From: a virus
DNA: 23,910 nucleotides
Direction: 5' to 3' (one strand)
IMG/VR virus record: IMGVR_UViG_3300020222_000179
Span: 1-23,910 of that record
Part shown: positions 3,043 through 23,760 of the stretch, piece after piece
How positions within the stretch are numbered: the stretch's first letter is position 1
How the letters are laid out: every line of letters begins with the position of its first letter
Translations under genes and position numbers: made by a program
The notes under the pieces: generated by a model
What the model was told of the DNA's origin: nothing
Databases searched by the model: none
What the model saw: the letters and a program-made list of their open reading frames with translations, nothing else

Positions 3043-3052
3043 TAATCACATA
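3031..3052 (+). promoter_or_regulatory. Inverted repeat spanning stop and next start codon
   Basis: TATGTGAT (3031-3038) and ATCACATA (3045-3052) form a perfect 8-bp stem with a 6-base loop. The stem-loop contains the stop codon of the fibre-like gene and reaches the first base of the ATG of the RuvC-like gene. No T-run follows, so it is not a typical terminator. It could restrain translation of the nuclease until ribosomes finish the upstream gene; that role is inferred. Confidence 0.4.
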
Positions 3053-3582
3053 TGATTCTTGGTTTAGACATATCAACTTCAATAACCGGCATTACTATCC
3101 TTGATGATACGGGTAATGTGTTGTTATTTGATATGGTTGATATGCGTTCTAAGAAATATAGTAGTTTTTTTCTTAAAGCCGACGCAGTAGAACGGCGGCT
3201 GGTACAATTAAAAAAAGACTATAATATAGATAAAATATTTATAGAGGAAAGTTTACAAGCATTTAGACCCGGATTAAGTAGTGCAAGTGTTATTTTGACT
3301 CTTGGACGTTTTAATGGTATAATAAGTTGGATATCTTATAAAATATTTGGCTTTGAACCACAATATATCGGCGCTTCGACTGCTAGGAAAGCTGTTGGCA
3401 TAAAGGTAGAGCGGGGTCAAAATGCCAAAGAAATCGTTTTAAAGCGCGTTATGGAGCTTGAAAAGGGCTTCCTAGTCGAGTATACTCCCCACGGCAATCC
3501 TGTTGCTGGCTGCTATGATAGAGCCGATGCATATGTTATAGCCCGTGCGGGGTATTTATCTTGTCAGACTCTAAAAAAATAG
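3052..3582 (+). CDS. RuvC-like Holliday junction resolvase (RNase H fold)
   Basis: A 176-residue nuclease of the RuvC type, an RNase H-fold family that cuts four-way DNA junctions. Acidic metal ligands are visible at the expected places: Asp6 in the opening ILGLDIST strand, Glu65/Glu66 in IFIEES, and Asp156 and Asp159 in the C-terminal GCYDRADAYVIA helix. The length is close to bacterial RuvC. In T4, junction resolution before packaging is done by an unrelated nuclease (gp49), so this would be the functional substitute. It overlaps the primase gene by 22 bases and belongs to a replication-recombination block with the primase and the Mre11-Rad50 fusion. No strong ribosome binding site is seen; a hairpin covers the start. 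Family call is good; the exact substrate is inferred. Confidence 0.82.
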   Translation: MILGLDISTSITGITILDDTGNVLLFDMVDMRSKKYSSFFLKADAVERRLVQLKKDYNIDKIFIEESLQAFRPGLSSASVILTLGRFNGIISWISYKIFGFEPQYIGASTARKAVGIKVERGQNAKEIVLKRVMELEKGFLVEYTPHGNPVAGCYDRADAYVIARAGYLSCQTLKK

Positions 3583-4502
3583 AGATTCTTAAGCAAATTC
3601 TTGGAGACTATTATTCTTCTGGGAATGAAAAGCTATTCTTTTGCCCAAAATGCTCGCATCATAAGAAAAAATTAAGTATAAACATTACTAAAGACGTATT
3701 TAAATGCTGGAAATGTGATTGGTCAGGTAAATCTATACGCCGCTTAATACAAAGGTATGGTAATTATGTCCAACAAAAGACATGGAATGAGCTTTCTGGT
3801 ATTGTCGAAATTACAGAATATGAGAAGATATTCCTTGCAGAAAAAAACGTTGAAGAAAAAGTACAATCAATCTTATTACCAACAGAATTCCAGACGTTAT
3901 GCAACAAGGATTCTAGCCTAACATCGTTACCAGCTCGTCGTTATCTGCGTGATCGCGGTATATCTAAACAAGATATACTTTATTGGAAAATCGGTTATGC
4001 AGTTTCTGGAGAATATTCTGGTCGTGTGATAATTCCATCTTTTAATTTAGATGGTAATATAGATTATTTTATTGCTAGAACTTATGAAAATGATTGGAAG
4101 AGATATTTAAATCCTCCAACACCAAAAGACATCATTTTTAATGAACTTTATATTGATTGGTCAAGCGATATAACAATAGTAGAAGGTGTATTTGATGCCA
4201 TTAAAGCAAAAAATGCTATTCCTATTCTTGGATCTACTTTGAGAGAAGGATCTAGATTATTTCGTGAATTAATAAAAAATGATCCTGCAATATATATCGC
4301 CCTAGATCCCGATGCAGAGAAAAAAGCTGAAAAACTTATTAATACACTTTTAGCATATGATGCAGAAGTGTATAAAATTCCCATCCCAGCTGAAAAAGAT
4401 GTTGGCGATATGAGTAATGAGGAATTTTTAGAGCGTAAGAAGGACGCTAAACTAATTAAAGATAGTGATTACTTTTTGATTAATAAAATCATGAGCATAT
4501 AA
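3561..4502 (+). CDS. DNA primase, DnaG type (zinc ribbon + TOPRIM)
   Basis: A 313-residue primase of the DnaG/T4 gp61 class, which makes RNA primers for lagging-strand synthesis. The N-terminal zinc ribbon has CPKC (Cys28, Cys31) and CWKC (Cys49, Cys52). The TOPRIM catalytic domain has Glu208 in TIVEGVFDAI and Asp249/Asp251 in ALDPD. A segment PARRYLRDRGIS-ILYWKIGY between the two is typical of primase cores. No helicase domain follows, so a separate helicase is expected elsewhere. The only sensible start is TTG at 3561, which overlaps the RuvC-like gene by 22 bases; no ATG in this frame lies before the zinc ribbon. The rare start codon and overlap suggest coupled, low-level translation. Confidence 0.9.
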   Translation: MSDSKKIEILKQILGDYYSSGNEKLFFCPKCSHHKKKLSINITKDVFKCWKCDWSGKSIRRLIQRYGNYVQQKTWNELSGIVEITEYEKIFLAEKNVEEKVQSILLPTEFQTLCNKDSSLTSLPARRYLRDRGISKQDILYWKIGYAVSGEYSGRVIIPSFNLDGNIDYFIARTYENDWKRYLNPPTPKDIIFNELYIDWSSDITIVEGVFDAIKAKNAIPILGSTLREGSRLFRELIKNDPAIYIALDPDAEKKAEKLINTLLAYDAEVYKIPIPAEKDVGDMSNEEFLERKKDAKLIKDSDYFLINKIMSI

Positions 4503-4503
4503 A

Positions 4504-4701
4504 ATGTCAGAAGGCAAAAAATATAATCCTAAAACGGTTATAGCATTATTAAAGTTAATGCTTTCTATGCGCAAAGATTTAACAAAAGAAGAAAAAGAAT
4601 CTGTTGTTAGATTAGCAGAACAAATGATACTTAAAGGTAAAAATAAAGACTATGAAGATAAACAAATCTTTTCTATCAAAGATTATAAAAGAAGAAATTA
4701 A
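4504..4701 (+). CDS. Small hypothetical protein (65 aa)
   Basis: An unrecognised 65-residue basic protein, mostly helical by composition, starting one base after the primase stop. Its last 50 bases overlap the start of the next gene in another frame, more than is usual in this operon. Either both are real or this ORF is shorter-lived; the downstream start is supported by a shared N-terminal motif, so doubt falls more on this one. No domain can be named. Confidence 0.5.
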   Translation: MSEGKKYNPKTVIALLKLMLSMRKDLTKEEKESVVRLAEQMILKGKNKDYEDKQIFSIKDYKRRN

Positions 4702-5836
4702 AAAAGTTTTGTATGATTCTCATAAACCTTGGGAAGTTGCTGTCGTGAGAAAAATGGTTGATATTTTTAATGATATTCATGACGGCAAGCAAAAATCAAG
4801 AGAAGAGTATATTGCCCATATACAACAGATAATTAACGACACCTCTAATAAAGAAACGCCAGAGCAAGCGTTTGATTATTTTAAAGAAGAAAACGCCGTA
4901 GATCCAGATATGTTTGAAGCTGTTGCAGGATATCTATATCCACGATTTTCCGATGATCAAATACCGGCATCTTATAAAGACATACATGCAAAGTATAAAG
5001 AAATGGCAAAAGGCTATGTCAAACATGATGCTGGACCCAGTTCTACGTTTTTAAGAAAGCCAAAGTCAATTGATCCACAAGATCAAGAAGACGTTAGAAA
5101 AAATAGAAAAACATTAATTCATGAAGAAGAGCAGCCTGATGCTAGAGAAGCAAAAGGAGAATTATATGTTAGAATGCCTCCGCAAAAGTTTTTACAATTA
5201 GCAGCTAGTGATGTGTCATGCGAAGAAAGAGTTTCAAAATTCTCTATCAAAAAATATGATGAAACCGGCTTAAGAGGCAATCCAGTTTTACGTATAGATG
5301 CGTTAAATAACAAAGTATTTTATCATGATGGTCGTGGTAGAGCTTGTTTAGCAATAAATAATAAATTATCAGAAATTAATGTAGCATTAGTCTTCTATAA
5401 AGAAGATCTAAAAACAAGAGCGATTAGAAGTTGGGATTATATAACTAAAATTGGTTATATTACTAATCAGGATGGGACAGAAAATATAGATTTATCTGGT
5501 ATTCGTTTAATAAATGAACCACCTGATTGGCCTAGAAGATTAAGAATATATGCTGTAAAATATATTGATAAAAGCGACAAGCAAACGCCATCAGAAAAAA
5601 TAGATTATAATATCAATAGTCTGATTATAGATATGTATTTAAATTATCCTAATATAAAACAACCAATAGAAGTTTATAGATTAATACCAAATAAAAGTGT
5701 AAAATCCGGCGAACCGCCTTATGAATTAGACAATGAAGGTCGTGTAGTATTAAAAAATAAAAATTTAGAAGATGAAAGTGTATGGGAAAAGGTTCCAAAA
5801 GATGAATGGGATAGTCTTCCTGCTCATCGTAAATAA
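4652..5836 (+). CDS. Hypothetical protein with N-terminal MKI-IIKEE helix and HDGRGRA motif (394 aa)
   Basis: Function unknown. Residues 1-20 (MKINKSFLSKIIKEEIKKVL) form a basic amphipathic helix closely like the start of the gene at 16024. This shared motif is the main reason for choosing the ATG at 4652 despite the 50-base overlap with the preceding ORF. Residues 25-160 are charged and look helical. A second domain from about 170 has FLQLAASDV, KYDETGLRGNPVLRID and FYHDGRGRACLA (HDGRGRA at 225-231), a pattern resembling the 'HEGRHRA' signature I recall from uncharacterised large phage and plasmid proteins. The C-terminal part is mixed and ends in a Trp/Asp-rich stretch. No membrane segment is seen. 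The helix contains IKE, fitting the (L/I)xE rule of T4-type prohead protease, so packaging into the capsid is possible. Confidence 0.75.
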   Translation: MKINKSFLSKIIKEEIKKVLYDSHKPWEVAVVRKMVDIFNDIHDGKQKSREEYIAHIQQIINDTSNKETPEQAFDYFKEENAVDPDMFEAVAGYLYPRFSDDQIPASYKDIHAKYKEMAKGYVKHDAGPSSTFLRKPKSIDPQDQEDVRKNRKTLIHEEEQPDAREAKGELYVRMPPQKFLQLAASDVSCEERVSKFSIKKYDETGLRGNPVLRIDALNNKVFYHDGRGRACLAINNKLSEINVALVFYKEDLKTRAIRSWDYITKIGYITNQDGTENIDLSGIRLINEPPDWPRRLRIYAVKYIDKSDKQTPSEKIDYNINSLIIDMYLNYPNIKQPIEVYRLIPNKSVKSGEPPYELDNEGRVVLKNKNLEDESVWEKVPKDEWDSLPAHRK

Positions 5837-5892: not shown

Positions 5893-8800
5893 ATGAAAAT
5901 ATTGCATTTGGCTGACACACATATTAAAAATCTTAAGTATCATGATGAATATCGTCAAATTTTTAATGAAATTTATAAAATTGCTAGAGAACAAAAAGTA
6001 GAATTAATTATTCATTGTGGCGATATTGCTCACACTAAAACTCAAATCAGTCCAGAATTTGTTGAAATGGCTGGTGATTTTTTTAGCAATCTTGCCTCAA
6101 TCGCTCCAACGCATATTATTCTTGGTAATCACGATGTAAACTTAAAGAATGAATCGCGTCAAGATTCTATCTCTCCAATTATTAAAGCTCTTAATTTACC
6201 AAATCTTTTTCTTCATAAATATTCCGGCGAAGTCTCAATTAATGATCATTTTAGCTTAAACGTATTGAGCATTATTGATGAGGACAAATGGGTTAAGCCA
6301 AGTAACGCCGAAAAAATTAATATTGGTTTATATCACGGTGCCATTTCTGGTATTACAACTGATACTGGTTATCAACTTGAAAGCGATGTTCATCTTGTTG
6401 ATGTTTATGATGGACATGATTATGTTTTTCTTGGTGATATTCATAAAACAAATCAATCAGTGGATAAAGAGGGTAAGGTTCGCTATCCCGGTTCAACCGT
6501 TCAGCAAGGCTTCGCAGAGACAAACGATAAAGGATTTCTAATTTGGGACATACAATCAAAAAATGATTTTACATGTACACATTATGCTATCAAAAATCCA
6601 AAACCATATATTGATATTATTCTTGGAGATCAAGGTGAGGTTCCTAGCGTTGATATTGCTCCTAATGCTCGCATACGTATTATTGCCGACAAAAGTATAT
6701 CATTGGATAAAATTAAAAAGGCAACAGATATTGTAAAAAATAGTTTTAATCCTGAAAGTGTAAGCTTTGTTAGCAAGGCTATTATTAGTAAAAACAATAC
6801 CGCTTCTACAATACTTGATAATCAAGACAATTTACGCGATCTTGGAGTTCAAGAAAAGCTTATTCGTAATTATTTAAAAGAATATAAAGCAGAAGAAGAT
6901 ATATTACTGAAAGTATTAGAATTAAATAAAAAGTTTTCTTCTGCTATTGAAGATGGTGAAGAAACATATCGCAATATTAATTGGAAATTAAAATCTCTTG
7001 AATGGGATAATCTATTTAATTATGGAGAAGGTAATAAAATAGATTTTTCTAATCTAAATGGTATAGTAGGTATCTTTGGCAAAAACTATTCCGGCAAATC
7101 ATCAGTTATTGATGGCTTGTTATATACTGTTTTTAATACTACTTCTAAAAACAACAGAAAGAATCTTAACGTTATTAATCAAAACGCTGAGAGTGCTTTT
7201 GGTAAGGCTACGATAGATATTGATGGTGAAGAATATATTATTGATCGTAAAAGCGAAAAATATATTAAAAAGACAAAAGGCGTAGAGGTAATTGAAGCAA
7301 AAACAGATGTTCAATTTACAACAGATAGTGAATCTTTGAACGGTTTGGCTCGTAATGATACAGATAAAAACATTCGTCGCTTCTTTGGCACTGTAGATGA
7401 TTTTTTCTTAACATCTATGGCTAGCCAGTTTGGTTATTTATCTTTTATTACAGAAGGATCTACTAATCGTAAACAAATTCTTGCCAAGTTCTTGGATCTA
7501 GAGACATTTGAAAAGAAATTTAAAATGGCCAAAGAAGAAAGCTCAGAGTTAAAAACTCTCTTGAAAAAACTAGAGGGTGTTAATTATGAAAAAGACATTT
7601 CTCTAGCACAAGATGAAATTTCTAAGATTGAAATGGAAATTCAAAGTAAGAAAGTGTCGATTGATGATTTGAAAGAAAAAATTTCTATTGCCAATCAGGC
7701 TATTGCTGAATTGCAAGTAGCCATTAGCAGCATGCCTACTGAAGTAATAGATTATAAAATGACAGAAACATCTTTGCATAATTATCTAGGTAAGCAAAAA
7801 GAACTTCTAGACACCAATATTAAAGTTGAGATTGATACAGAAAAGAAAAATACATTATTAAATGAAATAAACAATCTTATTTCTAGTATCAACGAGGAAG
7901 AACTACGCAAAAAAGACGCTGAACTTGTTTCCTTGTCTAAGGAAGTAAACGCTTTAGAAAAAAAATATTCATTACTAAGCGGCGAGTTATCTACAAGAGA
8001 TAACAAAATTAAACTTTTAAATGAGATTCCTTGCGGGGATTCTTTCCCAAGCTGTAAGTTTATCAAGGATGCTTTTGCAGCTAAGGAGGGCTATAAGGGC
8101 ATTTTTGAAGAAACTATTGAACTTGGTAACTCTCTTAATGAAAAAAGGTCATCTGCTATATCTCTTGATGAAGAAAATAGAGAGCAAAACGATAGATTTA
8201 AGTCATTAGTGCAAAAATCCTTGATTCTTAAAGAATTTATTGCAAAGAATGAGCTTACGATTGAAAAGAATCGTGGCTCCCTACATATTATCGAAGGAAA
8301 CATACAGTCTTTACAAAAAAAACTAGAAGAATACGAAAAAAATAAACAAAAGATCGAAAGTTTCCAAGAGCTTTTATCAAAAAAAGACAATAAAAACAAT
8401 ATTTTGTTATCTTTAAATAAAAATTTGTCTGTTATTGAGAAAGAATTGTTAGAACTATATAAAAATCATGGTTCTATTACTCAAAAATATGAAATATTTG
8501 TCAAGCAAAAGGAAGAGTTAGAACAAATTCGTAAAGACTATGCAGCATACGAATTATATTTATCTTGTATGCATCCCAACGGTCTTTCATATGAGATTAT
8601 TAAAAGTAAACTACCAGACATTAATCAAGAAATATCTAAAATATTGTCTAATGTTGTAGATTTCTCTATTTATCTTGAGAATGACGACGATAAATTGGAT
8701 ATTATGATTAAACATCCGAAATATGATGCTAGGCCATTAGAAATGGGTAGCGGTGCGGAGAAAACTCTTGCGTCTACAGCTATTAGATTAGCTCTTATCA

Positions 8801-9018
8801 GCGTAACAACACTCCCCCGGCCCGATTTTTTTGTGATGGATGAACCGGGAACGGCTCTTGATGCTGAAAATCTTGATGGATTTATAAAAATATTAGAGCT
8901 AATTAAAGGATATTTTAAAACTGTTATACTTATCTCACATCTAGATAGTTTAAAAGATTGTGTTGATACGCAAATAGTTATTGAACAAAAAGATGGATAC
9001 GCATTTATTAACCAATAG
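5893..9018 (+). CDS. gp47-gp46: Fused Mre11/SbcD (gp47) nuclease - Rad50/SbcC (gp46) ATPase
   Basis: A 1041-residue protein uniting the two subunits of the recombination nuclease, which in T4 are separate genes 47 and 46. Residues 1-270 are the calcineurin-like nuclease: Asp8/His10 (ADTH), Asp44 (CGDIAH), Asn79/His80 (GNHD), His148 (YHG) and GDIHK at 181-185, then RYPGSTVQQGF. The fifth motif reads GDIH, not GHIH. A helical linker follows (about 310-365). The ABC ATPase starts near 368, with Walker A GKNYSGKS at 396-403. Long coiled coils flank a Cys714-x6-Cys721 hook, followed by a signature-like MGSGAE (951-956), Walker B FFVMDEP (Asp983, Glu984) and H-loop His1016. It would resect DNA ends for recombination-dependent replication. 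A GGAGAA ribosome binding site precedes the ATG. The frame is open throughout with no internal break. Confidence 0.93.
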   Translation: MKILHLADTHIKNLKYHDEYRQIFNEIYKIAREQKVELIIHCGDIAHTKTQISPEFVEMAGDFFSNLASIAPTHIILGNHDVNLKNESRQDSISPIIKALNLPNLFLHKYSGEVSINDHFSLNVLSIIDEDKWVKPSNAEKINIGLYHGAISGITTDTGYQLESDVHLVDVYDGHDYVFLGDIHKTNQSVDKEGKVRYPGSTVQQGFAETNDKGFLIWDIQSKNDFTCTHYAIKNPKPYIDIILGDQGEVPSVDIAPNARIRIIADKSISLDKIKKATDIVKNSFNPESVSFVSKAIISKNNTASTILDNQDNLRDLGVQEKLIRNYLKEYKAEEDILLKVLELNKKFSSAIEDGEETYRNINWKLKSLEWDNLFNYGEGNKIDFSNLNGIVGIFGKNYSGKSSVIDGLLYTVFNTTSKNNRKNLNVINQNAESAFGKATIDIDGEEYIIDRKSEKYIKKTKGVEVIEAKTDVQFTTDSESLNGLARNDTDKNIRRFFGTVDDFFLTSMASQFGYLSFITEGSTNRKQILAKFLDLETFEKKFKMAKEESSELKTLLKKLEGVNYEKDISLAQDEISKIEMEIQSKKVSIDDLKEKISIANQAIAELQVAISSMPTEVIDYKMTETSLHNYLGKQKELLDTNIKVEIDTEKKNTLLNEINNLISSINEEELRKKDAELVSLSKEVNALEKKYSLLSGELSTRDNKIKLLNEIPCGDSFPSCKFIKDAFAAKEGYKGIFEETIELGNSLNEKRSSAISLDEENREQNDRFKSLVQKSLILKEFIAKNELTIEKNRGSLHIIEGNIQSLQKKLEEYEKNKQKIESFQELLSKKDNKNNILLSLNKNLSVIEKELLELYKNHGSITQKYEIFVKQKEELEQIRKDYAAYELYLSCMHPNGLSYEIIKSKLPDINQEISKILSNVVDFSIYLENDDDKLDIMIKHPKYDARPLEMGSGAEKTLASTAIRLALISVTTLPRPDFFVMDEPGTALDAENLDGFIKILELIKGYFKTVILISHLDSLKDCVDTQIVIEQKDGYAFINQ

Positions 9019-9026
9019 GAGTTGTT

Positions 9027-9314
9027 ATGTCTAATATGGGCTTATCAGAAGAAGTTAAAGAAGAAATAAAAGATTTAGATAAACGCATGGAAGCAGAAAG
9101 AAATAAATTAGACGGATCACGTTTAGGATTAGTAGATTTAGTCACAGAAAAATTTGTATCTCGTAAATTATTAGTATGGTGTTTTGCTACTTGGCTTTTA
9201 TGGACAGCAAAAATCACACCAGATGAATGGACAGCTATTACTTTAGGATATGTAGGAATCGAAGGTATGGCGGATTTAGCTGTTAAATGGAAAAACGCAG
9301 GTAAAAAGGAATAA
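9027..9314 (+). CDS. Small membrane protein, holin candidate (95 aa)
   Basis: A 95-residue protein with a charged helical N-terminus (1-40), a hydrophobic, Trp-rich segment at about 48-64 (LLVWCFATWLLWTAKI) and a second moderately hydrophobic stretch at about 68-86, then a basic tail. This hairpin-like layout, small size and position ahead of two further membrane-anchored proteins fit a phage holin or holin-like protein. A GGAG-type ribosome binding site (TAGGAGTTGTT) lies between it and the nuclease gene. The holin call rests on topology and context only; no endolysin gene is seen in this window. Confidence 0.6.
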   Translation: MSNMGLSEEVKEEIKDLDKRMEAERNKLDGSRLGLVDLVTEKFVSRKLLVWCFATWLLWTAKITPDEWTAITLGYVGIEGMADLAVKWKNAGKKE

Positions 9315-11117: not shown

Positions 11118-12695
11118 ATGGCGTATAAATTATCCAAAGAGGAAATTAGAGCCGAAATATTAAAATGTGGCAAAGACCCTGCACATTTTTTGGATAACTA
11201 TGCCAGAATCGTACATCAAGAACGTGGCTTAATACCTTTTAAGACTTTTAAATTTCAGAAACAATTATTAAAAGATTTTCATGATCATCGTTTTAATGTG
11301 ATATTAAAATCACGTCAGATGGGCATTTCAACAATTGTTTCTGGTTATATTGCTTGGATGATGTTGTTTTACAAAGAAAAAAACATTCTTGTAATGGCAA
11401 CAAAATTAAATACAGCAATAGAAATAGTAGAAAAAGTAAAAGATATCTTTAATTCTATACCTCCTTGGTTGCAAATAGCAGAAATAAGTGTTAACAACAA
11501 AACAAAATTAGAATTAGATAACGGTTCAAAAATACAAGGTGTTCCTACATCTAAAGATGCTGGTCGTGGTCAAACGCTTTCTTTATTGGTCCTTGACGAA
11601 GCAGCGCACGTGGAAGAAATGGATGATTTATGGACCGGCTTATTACCAACAATTTCAACAGGCGGTCGCTGTATAGCTCTATCTACTCCTAACGGTGTTG
11701 GTAATTGGTTTCACAAGTCCTACGCTGATTCAGAAGTAGGTGCAAATAACTTTAAACCAACTAAATTACCTTGGTATGTACATCCAGAATATACACAAGA
11801 ATGGTTTGATAATATGACGCGAAATATGAGTAAGCGTCAAATAGCACAAGAATTTGAATGTAATTTTAATGCATCTGGCGAAACTGTTATGAATCCAGAT
11901 GATATTAACAGAATTAAGAAAAATATTGTTGAACCTAAATATCGCACTTGGATAGATCGTAACTACCATATATGGAAAGAATTTGAAAATGGCGGTTCTT
12001 ATTTACTATCTGCCGACGTAGCCCGTGGTGATGGAAAAGACTTTTCTGTATTTCACGTATTAGATATTAAAAACATGGAACAAGTAGCAGAATATCAAGG
12101 AAAAATAGATCTTGATAGTTTTGCTCGTTTGCTTTTTGATGTTGGAAAAGAATATGGCAATTGTATGTTGGTAGTAGAAAACAACAACGTTGGTTATGCA
12201 GTATTAACTAAACTAGTAGAAATGGGATATCCAAATATATTCTATTCTGCCAAATCAACACATGAATTCGTTGATAGTTCTTCAGCGCAATATAATTCAA
12301 ACTCTGTTCCCGGTTTTACAACATCAATGAAAAATCGTCCATTGGTTGTTGCTAAGTTAGAAGAATTTATACGCAATAAAAGTATAAAAATTAATTCATT
12401 AAGATTTGCAAATGAATTAGATACATTTGTCTGGATTCATGGTCGTCCAGAGGCACAGAAAAATTATAATGATGATTTGGTAATGTCATTAGCAATAGGA
12501 TGCTGGGTTAGAGATACGGCGATAATTAACAACGAGCGTAATTTAGAGTATTCTAAGGCGTTTTTAGGTGCAATAGGAAAAATAGGTAATTATTTAGATA
12601 CTACTCCAAAAGGTTTTGCACAAGAAGAAAGAAAAATGAAACAACAACAAGTGCAACAAATGTATAAAGATTATAGCTGGATAATAAAAGGATAA
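11118..12695 (+). CDS. gp17: Terminase large subunit, gp17-like
   Basis: The DNA-packaging motor and headful nuclease, 525 residues. The ATPase domain has a P-loop-like SRQMGIST at 65-72 in which the usual lysine is replaced by isoleucine, Walker B LLVLDEAA with Asp160/Glu161, and a coupling motif ALSTPNGVGN. The RNase H-fold nuclease domain shows Asp300 (LLSADVARGDGKDFS), Glu354 (LVVENNNVGY) and Asp452/Asp453 (NDDLVMSLA), the expected acidic triad. It is somewhat shorter than T4 gp17. Here, unlike T4, the portal follows directly, with no tail sheath or tube genes between. The ATG at 11118 follows an AAGG-like ribosome binding site; the ATG five bases upstream is in another frame. Confidence 0.95.
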   Translation: MAYKLSKEEIRAEILKCGKDPAHFLDNYARIVHQERGLIPFKTFKFQKQLLKDFHDHRFNVILKSRQMGISTIVSGYIAWMMLFYKEKNILVMATKLNTAIEIVEKVKDIFNSIPPWLQIAEISVNNKTKLELDNGSKIQGVPTSKDAGRGQTLSLLVLDEAAHVEEMDDLWTGLLPTISTGGRCIALSTPNGVGNWFHKSYADSEVGANNFKPTKLPWYVHPEYTQEWFDNMTRNMSKRQIAQEFECNFNASGETVMNPDDINRIKKNIVEPKYRTWIDRNYHIWKEFENGGSYLLSADVARGDGKDFSVFHVLDIKNMEQVAEYQGKIDLDSFARLLFDVGKEYGNCMLVVENNNVGYAVLTKLVEMGYPNIFYSAKSTHEFVDSSSAQYNSNSVPGFTTSMKNRPLVVAKLEEFIRNKSIKINSLRFANELDTFVWIHGRPEAQKNYNDDLVMSLAIGCWVRDTAIINNERNLEYSKAFLGAIGKIGNYLDTTPKGFAQEERKMKQQQVQQMYKDYSWIIKG

Positions 12696-12698
12696 ATC

Positions 12699-14681
12699 AT
12701 GGCTCCCGATAACAAAACAAAAGAAAATAATCCAAAAAATAGACAATCACCACTATATGTTGGTTTAACTAGATTATTTTCTGGTCCATTAAGCAATTTT
12801 CGCGCTCAATCACAAATACGTTATAAGCGCCGCGATTTAGACCGTTATAAATTTACTAGCACCAGCGGACAAAGTTTTAAAAAGAAAAGTTACAATCCTT
12901 TTGAAGCAATACAAAGTAATATCATGGCTAACCAAAGCCGTGCTGAACGTTATAGCGATTTTGATCAAATGGAATTCATGCCAGAAATAGCTTCTTCGAT
13001 GGATATCTATGCCGATGAAATGACAACCAGTAACCAATTTAGAAATTTGTTATTTATTGATTGTAAAAATGATGAAATTAAAGGCATACTTCATAATTTA
13101 TATTTTAATGTTCTAAACGTAGAAACTAATTTATTTTCTTGGTGTAGAACAATGTGCAAGTTTGGTGATTTCTTTTTATACTTAGATGTTGATGAAAAAT
13201 TGGGCGTTAAAACTGTTCTTGGTTTACCATCGCCCGAAATAGAAAGAATTGAAGGAGAAGATGAAACTAATCCAAATTATGTACAATTTCAATGGAACAG
13301 CGCTGGTTTAACATTTGAAAATTGGCAAATAGCACATTTTCGTATCTTAGGGCAAGATAAATATTCTCCATATGGTACTTCCATTTTAGAGCCTGCACGC
13401 CGTATTTGGCGTCAGCTACAGTTAATGGAAGATGCCATGATGGCTTATCGCATTGTTCGCGCTCCAGAACGCCGTGTGTTTTATATCGATGTTGGTAACG
13501 TTGCCCCGCAAGAGGTTGAACAATTCGTACAAAAAGTTATTACTGGTTTAAAACGTAACATGATTGTTGATCCAACAACTGGTCGTGTAGATTTGCGTTA
13601 TAATCCCATGAGTATTGATGAAGATTTTTATATTCCAGTACGTGGTCAACAAAGTGGTACTAAAATTGAAAACCTACAAGGTGGCACATTTACAGGTGAC
13701 ATAGATGACGTACAATATTTGCGTGATAAACTATTTTCTGCTCTTAAATTACCACAAGCTTATTTAACAAATGGTAAAGATAAAGCAGCAGAAGATAAAA
13801 GCACATTAGCACAAAAAGATATACGTTTTGCAAGAACCGTACAACGTCTACAACGTGTAGTTATAGAAGAATTACGCAAGATTGGTATGATTCATTTGTA
13901 TACTCTTGGTTATCGGAATGAAGATTTATTAAAGTTTAGTTTAAAACTAAATAATCCTTCTAAAATATCTGAGTTACAAGAGCTAGAACATTTTAAGGCC
14001 CAATTAGAAGTGGCCGGTACGGCAAAAGAAGTTGGATTTAGCAAACGTTGGGTGTTTGAAAATGTCTTTAAGATGAGCGATAGAGACTTTTTACGTATTC
14101 AAAGAGACATATTCTATGATAAACAATTTGAAAAGTCTATTGAAGCTGGAGAAACTAGTGCAGATACTGCATCAGGTGGTGGTAGCGCATTAGGCGGGTT
14201 GGGAGGAAACGAACCTACACCACCTCCAGAGGGCGGCGAAACGCCGGGAACTGAAACACCATCAGCAGGCGGTGAAGCGGCAGGCAGTGAAGCAACAAAA
14301 CCAGAAGAAACTAGTCTATTAGCAGCTCCAGCTAGAAGAAGCAATGCCGCAGTTCCTCGCCAATATAGAAAAGATGGCTATTATAAGACTCCCGGCTCTA
14401 ATAATACATATCGTAAAGAAGAAGTGTCGGATAATCGTCCCGGTGGCGCTAGAAGTCGTGGAATCAATGCTACACATACGCCTTGGGCAGTCAATGGTGC
14501 ATCTAAAAATAGCACACTTCCCGGTAAATCAGCATTAAATACTCTCAGTAGAAATATAATGAGTGAAAACGAGGATGTTGACTTTGATAATGAAGAAAAA
14601 ATGCTTTTAGAAGTAGAAAATAAGCTTCAAACGCTTTCAAAAACACTACTTAAAGAAGATAAAGACGCGGAGAAAAAATAA
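12699..14681 (+). CDS. gp20: Portal protein, gp20-like
   Basis: The 12-subunit DNA entry ring, 660 residues. Recognisable stretches are AERYSDFDQMEFMPEIASSMDIYADE (about 80-105), the central RAPERRVFYIDVGN, and FTGDIDDVQYLRDKLFSALKLPQAYL (about 327-352), all typical of T4-superfamily portals. T4 gp20 is about 520 residues. The excess here is a C-terminal tail from about 485: first a Gly/Pro/Glu/Ala-rich low-complexity region, then a basic stretch (RRSNAAVPRQYRKDGYYKT) and an acidic end. The tail is probably disordered and may contact the core or be trimmed by the prohead protease. The gene follows the terminase by 3 bases and abuts the next gene. Confidence 0.94.
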   Translation: MAPDNKTKENNPKNRQSPLYVGLTRLFSGPLSNFRAQSQIRYKRRDLDRYKFTSTSGQSFKKKSYNPFEAIQSNIMANQSRAERYSDFDQMEFMPEIASSMDIYADEMTTSNQFRNLLFIDCKNDEIKGILHNLYFNVLNVETNLFSWCRTMCKFGDFFLYLDVDEKLGVKTVLGLPSPEIERIEGEDETNPNYVQFQWNSAGLTFENWQIAHFRILGQDKYSPYGTSILEPARRIWRQLQLMEDAMMAYRIVRAPERRVFYIDVGNVAPQEVEQFVQKVITGLKRNMIVDPTTGRVDLRYNPMSIDEDFYIPVRGQQSGTKIENLQGGTFTGDIDDVQYLRDKLFSALKLPQAYLTNGKDKAAEDKSTLAQKDIRFARTVQRLQRVVIEELRKIGMIHLYTLGYRNEDLLKFSLKLNNPSKISELQELEHFKAQLEVAGTAKEVGFSKRWVFENVFKMSDRDFLRIQRDIFYDKQFEKSIEAGETSADTASGGGSALGGLGGNEPTPPPEGGETPGTETPSAGGEAAGSEATKPEETSLLAAPARRSNAAVPRQYRKDGYYKTPGSNNTYRKEEVSDNRPGGARSRGINATHTPWAVNGASKNSTLPGKSALNTLSRNIMSENEDVDFDNEEKMLLEVENKLQTLSKTLLKEDKDAEKK

Positions 14682-21991: not shown

Positions 21992-23002
21992 ATGAGTAAC
22001 GTATTAGAAAAACTAACAGAAGGCGTTGTAGAACGCAACATGTTAGTAGAAACACAAGCAATCGTAGGTAAATGGCAAAAAAGCGGTCTTCTAGAAGGTC
22101 TAAAGGAAGGTCGTGAACAATCAACAATGGCAGTATTGCTTGAAAACCAAGCAAAAGAATTACTCCGCGAAGCTAACACAATGTCTTCTGGTGACGTACA
22201 AGGTTTCGCAACAGTAGCATTCCCTATCGTTCGCCGCGTATTCGCTGGCCTTATCGCCAACGATCTCGTAAGCGTACAACCAATGAGCTTACCATCCGGT
22301 CTTGTATTCTTCATGGATTTCAAGCGTGGTACAAACGTTGGTAACGTAGGCGACCGCGTATTTGAAACAGGTTCTTCCTTCTTTGGTGATCGTCTAGGTG
22401 TACAAATCACTGGCGGTGTACGTCTTGATGGCGATTACACAGAAAAAGGTTTCTATAACCTTGCAAACGGTTATAACACCTCACGTTATAACACCTTCGT
22501 ACCAACTGCTAGCGTAAGCGATTCTGCTCTATCAAACGTAACTATTGCTTCTGCAACAGACGCACAAAAAGCTCTTGTTCGTTGGGATCCAGACGTACTA
22601 GGTGATGCTACCTACACCAAGGCTTCCGTACTACGCGTTGCTCTTTCCGCTCTTTCACAAAGCGCGCTACTAGCAGAGAAAGATGTATTTGCAGTATCTC
22701 TAGCACAAGCAGCAGGTTATACCGCTGGTACCGTAGGTGATGCAACTGGTTCTGCAATGGAAAACGGCGCAAAACTAGTTCGTCGTCTAAACACCATCGT
22801 AGACGTAGCTGGCACTAAGCACCTACAAATGGTAGTTGTAGCACAAACCAGCGCAGCATTAGCAGCAGTTGTAACTGGTTCGCACGTATTACTTTCTTAC
22901 CCAATCAAGGATCGTCTTGAAGGAGTAGGTCAAGATGCACTTGGTGCAATCAAGGTGCAACACCTTGGACCTTTGAAGACTCTGCCGCAATTCCAGAAGT
23001 AG
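21992..23002 (+). CDS. gp23: Major capsid protein, gp23-like, N-terminal part (frame-interrupted)
   Basis: The shell protein of the head. The frame runs from the ATG at 21992 (strong AAGGAGAT ribosome binding site) to a stop at 23000-23002. Residues 1-60 look like the cleaved propeptide (GKWQKSGLLEGL, LLENQAKELLRE), with a likely prohead-protease cut after LRE at 60. The body then starts GDVQGFATVAFPIVRRVFAGLIANDLVSVQPM and LPSGLVFFMDF, clear gp23 hallmarks. Homology in this frame ends near residue 320; the last residues (QHLGPLKTLPQFQK) do not fit the family, while the continuation is in the -1 frame. Codons here are C-rich and optimised compared with neighbours, as expected for the most abundant virion protein. 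See the entries for the C-terminal part and for the break. Confidence 0.9.
   Translation: MSNVLEKLTEGVVERNMLVETQAIVGKWQKSGLLEGLKEGREQSTMAVLLENQAKELLREANTMSSGDVQGFATVAFPIVRRVFAGLIANDLVSVQPMSLPSGLVFFMDFKRGTNVGNVGDRVFETGSSFFGDRLGVQITGGVRLDGDYTEKGFYNLANGYNTSRYNTFVPTASVSDSALSNVTIASATDAQKALVRWDPDVLGDATYTKASVLRVALSALSQSALLAEKDVFAVSLAQAAGYTAGTVGDATGSAMENGAKLVRRLNTIVDVAGTKHLQMVVVAQTSAALAAVVTGSHVLLSYPIKDRLEGVGQDALGAIKVQHLGPLKTLPQFQK
22943..22967 (+). other. Frame break site in capsid gene: GGTGCA repeat and perfect hairpin
   Basis: The shift to the -1 frame must occur between 22921 (after a -1-frame TGA at 22918-22920) and 22999 (before the 0-frame stop). Within this interval, GGTGCAA occurs at 22943-22949 and again at 22954-22960, 11 bases apart. 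A perfect 7-bp hairpin CAAGGTG-CAA-CACCTTG spans 22951-22967. Deleting or skipping 11 bases joins the two frames. No standard X XXY YYZ slippery heptamer is present. Confidence 0.7.
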
Positions 23003-23760
23003 AATTAAAGGTAGACAGCTTCTCAATCACTGCTCGTACCCGCAAGCTTAAGGCAGCATGGACCCCAGAACTAGGTCAAGACCTAAATGCTTATCACAAC
23101 CTCGATGCAGAAGTTGAATTGACAAGCATTCTTTCTGAACAAATCGGTCTTGAAATTGATCAAGAAATCCTAAACGATCTAGTTAAGGGTGCAACCGCTG
23201 GCACCAAGTACTGGAGCCGTCGTCCCGGTAAGTTCGTTAACCGTGCAACTGGTGTAGGTATCAACACCACCGCCGCTGATGCCCCAGCTCCTCCAGACTT
23301 CACTGGTAACGTTTCAATGTGGTATGAAACACTTGTTGAAACAATCAACGATGTATCCGCAGCAATTCACCGTAAGACACTTCGCGGTGGTGCAAACTTC
23401 CTAGTTTGCTCCCCAGAAGTAGCTAACATTCTTGAATTCACCAGCGGCTTCCGTGCATCTGTAACAAGCGATGCAGAAAAAGGTGCAGTAGGCGCAGTTA
23501 AGGTTGGCGATATGAACAAGAAGTTTGACGTTATCGTTCACCCATACTTCCTACGCAACGTAATTCTCGTTGGTCGTAAGGGTGGCAGCTTCCTAGAAAG
23601 CGGTTACGTATATGCTCCATACGTACCACTACAATCCACACCAACCATCTTCGATCCAGACACCTTCTCACCACGTAAGGCTGTTTTGACCCGTTATGGC
23701 AAGGCGATGGTTCGTCCTGACATGTACGGTCTTGTAATCTGCGAAGATCTAGAAGGTTAA
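22957..23760 (+). CDS. gp23: Major capsid protein, gp23-like, C-terminal part (frame -1 relative to first part)
   Basis: Continuation of the capsid protein in the -1 frame. From 22957 it reads ATPWTFEDSAAIPEVELKVD, then SITARTRKLKAAWTPELGQDLNAYHNLDAEVELTSIL. This aligns with T4 gp23 NPW...EMGFRID and AKSRQLKAAYSIELAQDLRAVHGMDADAELSGIL. Later come LRGGANFLVCSPEVANILE, KFDVIVHPYF and SGYVYAPYVPLQSTPTIFDPDTF, ending PDMYGLVICEDLEG. The first standalone start would be a TTG at 23119 without a ribosome binding site and inside the conserved core, so independent translation is unlikely. If joined to the first part the product is close to 590 residues (T4 gp23: 521). Codon use is optimised as in the first part. 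A strong terminator follows. Confidence 0.9.
   Translation, partial: ATPWTFEDSAAIPEVELKVDSFSITARTRKLKAAWTPELGQDLNAYHNLDAEVELTSILSEQIGLEIDQEILNDLVKGATAGTKYWSRRPGKFVNRATGVGINTTAADAPAPPDFTGNVSMWYETLVETINDVSAAIHRKTLRGGANFLVCSPEVANILEFTSGFRASVTSDAEKGAVGAVKVGDMNKKFDVIVHPYFLRNVILVGRKGGSFLESGYVYAPYVPLQSTPTIFDPDTFSPRKAVLTRYGKAMVRPDMYGLVICEDLEG

Follow-up and report, generated by a model that had tools for sequence, protein, structure and literature searches.

Fusions of the Mre11 nuclease and the Rad50 ATPase were described in 2011 by Yoshida, Claverie and Ogata, who reported them in Mimivirus (R555), Bacillus phage 0305phi8-36, plasmids, and several cellular organisms (PMC3175470). The nuclease of R555 departs from the canonical active site at two positions, where the third Asp of GDXXD is His and the residue known as His206 in Pyrococcus is Asp (PMC3175470). 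In the same study, abundant R555 relatives of marine and aquatic metagenomes were inferred to be phage-borne, in part because phage primases adjoin them (PMC3175470).

In the window, the 23,910-nucleotide stretch of viral DNA that we analyzed, ORF translation gives a single unbroken ATG-to-stop frame of 1041 codons (Table 1). An earlier note on this DNA had read the frame as Mre11 followed by a full Rad50, and Pfam agrees, with both domains above the curated cut-offs, a calcineurin-like nuclease at the N terminus and the halves of a Rad50/SMC ATPase flanking a long middle part. The protein also matches SbcD-like and SbcC-like PHROGs families, and its fold matches are solved Mre11-Rad50, SbcCD, and Mre11 structures. 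A motif check located the nuclease motifs (ADTH, 7 to 10; GNHD, 78 to 81; YHG, 147 to 149; GDIHK, 181 to 185) and the ATPase motifs (Walker A GKNYSGKS, 396 to 403; MGSGAE, 951 to 956; Walker B D983/E984; H1016), in agreement with the positions that the note had given for Walker A, Walker B, and the His. The ATPase part has the full Rad50/SbcC architecture, a long coiled coil flanked by two lobes that carry Walker A, signature, Walker B, and switch His.

In most Mre11 proteins motif V is GHxH, and the SbcD consensus is GDXXD. The claim that all Mre11 metal-binding motifs are present is not strictly correct, as the fusion protein has GDIH instead of the canonical GHxH and GDIAH (43 to 47) instead of GDXXD; a CX6C hook instead of CXXC is its third departure from canonical Mre11-Rad50. 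In our 119-row alignments, in which the window is counted twice, D8, H10, D44, N79, H80, H148, D182, H184, K402, D983, E984, and H1016 do not vary in any row, and H47 is invariant in alignment A2. H47 and D182 reproduce the GDXXD change and the Pyrococcus His206 change of R555, respectively. Like R555, the window protein is a single ORF with SbcD/Mre11 at its N terminus and SbcC/Rad50 at its C terminus, and in the predicted structure a capping and helix-loop-helix region and a short connector precede Rad50. Since both R555 active-site changes are present and fixed in the lineage, we class the protein by its sequence as an R555-type Mre11/Rad50 fusion, with R555 compared by its published description. 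Most of the best full-length matches among predicted viral structures are proteins of giant viruses; those of Tenacibaculum phage and Listeria phage come next.

Table 1. Positions in the window of the fusion gene, its parts, and the conserved neighboring genes
Feature	Position	Strand	Basis
RuvC-like Holliday junction resolvase, syntenic upstream	3052..3582	+	PHROGs, synteny
DnaG-type primase, syntenic upstream	3561..4502	+	Pfam, PHROGs, synteny
Mre11/Rad50 fusion gene, 1041 aa	5893..9018	+	Pfam, PHROGs, full-length single-frame relatives
Mre11 calcineurin-like nuclease domain, about residues 1-220	5893..6552	+	Pfam, motifs, alignment
Mre11 capping-domain-like region, about residues 221-295	6553..6777	+	Predicted strands and helix; inferred from Mre11 architecture
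Helix-loop-helix, residues 317-355, read as the Rad50-binding domain of Mre11	6841..6957	+	Predicted structure, alignment
Connector, residues 356-362	6958..6978	+	Predicted structure, alignment
Rad50 N-lobe with Walker A, residues 363-536	6979..7500	+	Pfam, motifs, predicted structure
Rad50 ascending coiled coil, residues 537-709	7501..8019	+	Predicted structure
Coiled-coil apex with CX6C hook, residues 710-724 (Cys714, Cys721)	8020..8064	+	Motifs, predicted structure, alignment
Rad50 descending coiled coil, residues 725-893	8065..8571	+	Predicted structure
Rad50 C-lobe with signature MGSGAE, Walker B, and switch His1016	8572..9018	+	Pfam, motifs, alignment
Syntenic downstream genes for the T4-type large terminase subunit (11118-12695) and for portal gp20 (12699-14681)	11118..14681	+	

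The junction and the frame among relatives

An AlphaFold2 monomer model built from 32 aligned lineage members (mean pLDDT of 78.6 and pTM of 0.48, moderate values) places two helices (317 to 331 and 335 to 355), a loop (356 to 362), and the first Rad50 strand (363 to 372) after the capping-like region. The helix-loop-helix of Mre11 binds the root of the Rad50 coil (PMC3175470), and the two helices are predicted to occupy its place. In 118 of the 119 alignment rows the helix-loop-helix is 39 residues long and the connector 7, with Q320 and R360 invariant; the stretch that varies, over 20 to 23 residues, is the one preceding the helices (296 to 316). By the estimate of Yoshida and colleagues, the gap of 28 Å found in the Thermotoga complex could be bridged by 9 to 12 residues in extended form (PMC3175470), so that the phage proteins are at or just under that minimum. 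The earlier description of a helical linker of perhaps 50 residues was therefore mostly mistaken: what it called linker appears to be largely the Rad50-binding region, a functional domain, and only the connector joins the two proteins. The fusion should add little further constraint, because this short connector would follow a helix-loop-helix already docked on the base of the Rad50 coil.

The earlier note had proposed a search for two-domain homologues and had supposed that related phages may share the fusion. Our scan of IMG/VR confirmed 390 relatives out of 394 pattern matches. Of 164 loci with a match, 161 have the entire protein in a single frame; these yield 118 distinct full-length sequences, among them that of the window. 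Relatives with 84% and 77% identity keep the frame unbroken over the junction, differing from the window across residues 350 to 366 by 3 and 7 silent codons, respectively, and by one amino-acid change each. It could be supposed that an assembly or sequencing artifact joined two neighboring genes, as the major capsid gene on this contig is itself broken in frame near 22,990 and single-base errors may therefore occur. We give this practically no weight, since nearly all of the 118 proteins with the same one-frame fusion come from other contigs and samples, their connector is 7 residues long in all alignment rows but one, and the isolates Mel-JY01 and XacN1 also have single-chain forms. The natural single-chain fusion is real, as the relatives with the same frame bear out, and it is widespread, but such fusions, including the R555 type, were already described in 2011. 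The author of the note did not know of a characterized example and would have counted it against the proposal if the fusion proved common and already described in this phage group; taken together, the relatives and the 2011 study (PMC3175470) largely establish both. A biochemically characterized Mre11-Rad50 fusion was not found in the open-licence literature.

Three loci are exceptions to the single-frame pattern as counted above (L167, L002, and L085). The copy in the 735-kb phage LR756501 (L002) is a single-frame fusion that is very diverged. In the 484-kb phage LR756508 (L085; LR756508.1, 16564 to 20789), an inserted frame interrupts the fusion right after the GDIHK motif. The insert encodes a TnsA-like endonuclease domain and has the look of a homing element; a search of Rfam placed no known intron family above threshold in this copy. 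The third, on a bacterial-bin scaffold (L167), was considered as a cellular fusion because of its WOR-3 bacterial match; the stretch concerned includes 300 unread bases, and the gene is disrupted by a run of them. Its neighbors are phage genes, so it gives no evidence for a cellular fusion. A plasmid search returned only distant, split, or partial matches.

Gene neighborhood and proposed role

The gene order RuvC-primase-fusion-terminase-portal is kept in nearly all testable loci, with the upstream primase and RuvC found in 48 of 49 and the downstream TerL in 61 of 64. Besides the terminase and portal gp20, the window encodes a T4-type prohead protease and the major capsid protein gp23. The gp23 gene (21992 to 23760) is read in two frames, 21992 to 23002 and 23119 to 23760; an intron was ruled out, as translation simply changes frame near 22,990, and the split is probably a simple frame shift due to sequence error. 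After the fusion gene, at 9027 to 9314, we found a 95-aa protein, possibly a holin, that includes a hydrophobic segment of membrane type and is present in 77 of 80 related loci. Between the primase and the fusion lies a 394-aa frame (4652 to 5836) that gave no family match and is present in only 3 of 80 related loci, a variable insertion within the conserved block.

Separate gp46 or gp47 genes were not found in eleven long IMG/VR records (119 to 204 kb, none rated at least 90% complete) or in Microcystis phage Mel-JY01. In each of these, no place other than the fused gene matched Mre11 and none gave a substantial Rad50 match; the other Rad50 matches were few, weak, and short. Flavobacterium phage immuto has a similar terminase and portal, but neither the Mre11 nor the Rad50 family was matched in it. 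We consider it quite likely that the R555-type fusion is the only gp46/gp47-type recombination nuclease of this T4-like aquatic phage lineage, a role suggested by homology and by the neighboring genes. By homology to SbcCD and T4 gp46/gp47, the protein most likely works as a homodimer, in which two chains would pair via their Mre11 parts, Rad50 heads, and coiled-coil hook to form M2R2 from one gene. ATP-driven head closure would gate the nuclease, as in SbcCD and T4, and the enzyme would resect or process DNA ends in recombination-dependent replication and might also help to break down host DNA. The fusion would also fix a 1:1 supply and pair each nuclease with its own ATPase.

A nuclease dedicated to anti-defense or to degrading the host genome, rather than to phage recombination, would fit with the annotation of T4 gp46/gp47 as also acting in host DNA degradation and with an active site that departs from canonical Mre11 at two positions. 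We regard such a nuclease as unlikely, given that in the records searched these phages have this Mre11/Rad50 only and that RuvC and primase adjoin it, as expected for core recombination and replication. Still less probable, in our judgment, is a mainly structural DNA tether, with a nuclease that the change of His206 to Asp has weakened. All rows have D182 where canonical Mre11 has His, as R555 does, but all other metal ligands are invariant, Asp can bind metal, and a GDLH motif also occurs in D12 of Vibrio phage PG07. What the recombination nuclease that we favor adds to the 2011 study is genome context: R555-like fusions of aquatic metagenomes lie complete in T4-like phages, where in the records searched they are the only Mre11/Rad50. 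A single chain of about 1040 residues would lend itself well to structural studies of Mre11-Rad50.

The coiled-coil apex

The coil is predicted to turn at residues 710 to 724, and the hook cysteines, 714 and 721, are at the positions given in the earlier note, with a spacing of CX6C and not that of the CXXC zinc hook. Among the 118 distinct proteins, this spacing is found in 100 (window included), CX2C in 9, CX7C in 6, and others in 3. CX2C is present in the split phage Rad50s that we checked (T4, NIT1, PG07, RaK2, and SRM01) as well as in XacN1, Mel-JY01, LR756501, and LR756508. No report of a CX6C hook was found in the open-licence literature, a search that could miss subscription papers. 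The CX6C tip, we infer, may bind zinc.

In general, the distal coiled coil has changed much more rapidly than the heads; loci L100 and L149 share 97 to 99% of head residues and about 22% around the hook. We also observed that hook spacing varies (CX6C, CX2C, CX7C, and CX3C) among the close relatives L039, L068, L078, L100, L149, L154, and L161. Mapped onto the head tree, the four hook labels require 11 changes, compared with 17.7 for shuffled labels, which is fewer but still many. Recombination as the source of hook switching is not needed for the pair L088/L004, in which silent divergence of the coil is about equal to that of the heads, so that a fast-evolving coil is explanation enough. In most informative pairs silent divergence has reached saturation, and recombination and fast evolution are not separable there. 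We tentatively raise, as a possibility that we would not bet on, that CX6C is a working noncanonical metal clasp and that the hook types have been repeatedly exchanged or converted among close relatives of this lineage while the heads stayed nearly constant. If so, hook type could set which molecules dimerize during coinfection by related phages.

Comparison with split and fused systems

Phage T4 is of the same kind as the window phage, sharing gp17, gp20, gp21, and gp23 homologues, and its gp47 and gp46 have the same two functions in the same order (47 then 46 in transcription). Unlike the window, T4 has two genes with 46.1 and 46.2 between them, a GHFH motif, a CPTC hook, and a distant sequence. 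Bacterial SbcCD (Escherichia coli 6s6v and 7yzp) shares fold and domain architecture with the window protein, and differs from it in having two subunits and canonical motifs.

The nearest isolate to the window lineage, for which close isolates are lacking, is Mel-JY01, at 31% identity. Its "AAA domain containing protein" (PP395634) is a single-chain fusion beside a primase, in the same clade and with GDIH, but it differs from the window in sequence (about 30% identity) and in its CX2C hook. ORF305 of the Xanthomonas jumbo phage XacN1 (AP018399; L170, AP018399.1, 3126 to 6425), annotated as a recombination endonuclease subunit, also has Mre11-Rad50 in a single chain, of 1099 aa, but with GHFH and a CPYC hook. 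Five split pairs were included in trees built for the Mre11 part and for the Rad50 heads. In these the XacN1 protein groups with split pairs, that of RaK2 (gp47/gp46) and the T4-like ones, and away from the window lineage; at least two changes on branches with good support are required to account for the fused forms, long branches limiting finer statements. By sequence, XacN1 is an independent fusion, and a second origin is in line with the 2011 proposal that such fusions arose recurrently (PMC3175470).

The closest described system is Mimivirus R555, with which the window protein shares an N-terminal Mre11 and a C-terminal Rad50, GDXXH, the His206-to-Asp change, a retained capping and helix-loop-helix region, and a short connector. 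Like the R555 relatives of the metagenomes, which have neighboring phage primases on their scaffolds, it is aquatic and lies near a primase. It differs from Mimivirus R555 in length, 1041 aa compared with 1351 aa, and in that its gene lies in a T4-like tailed phage.
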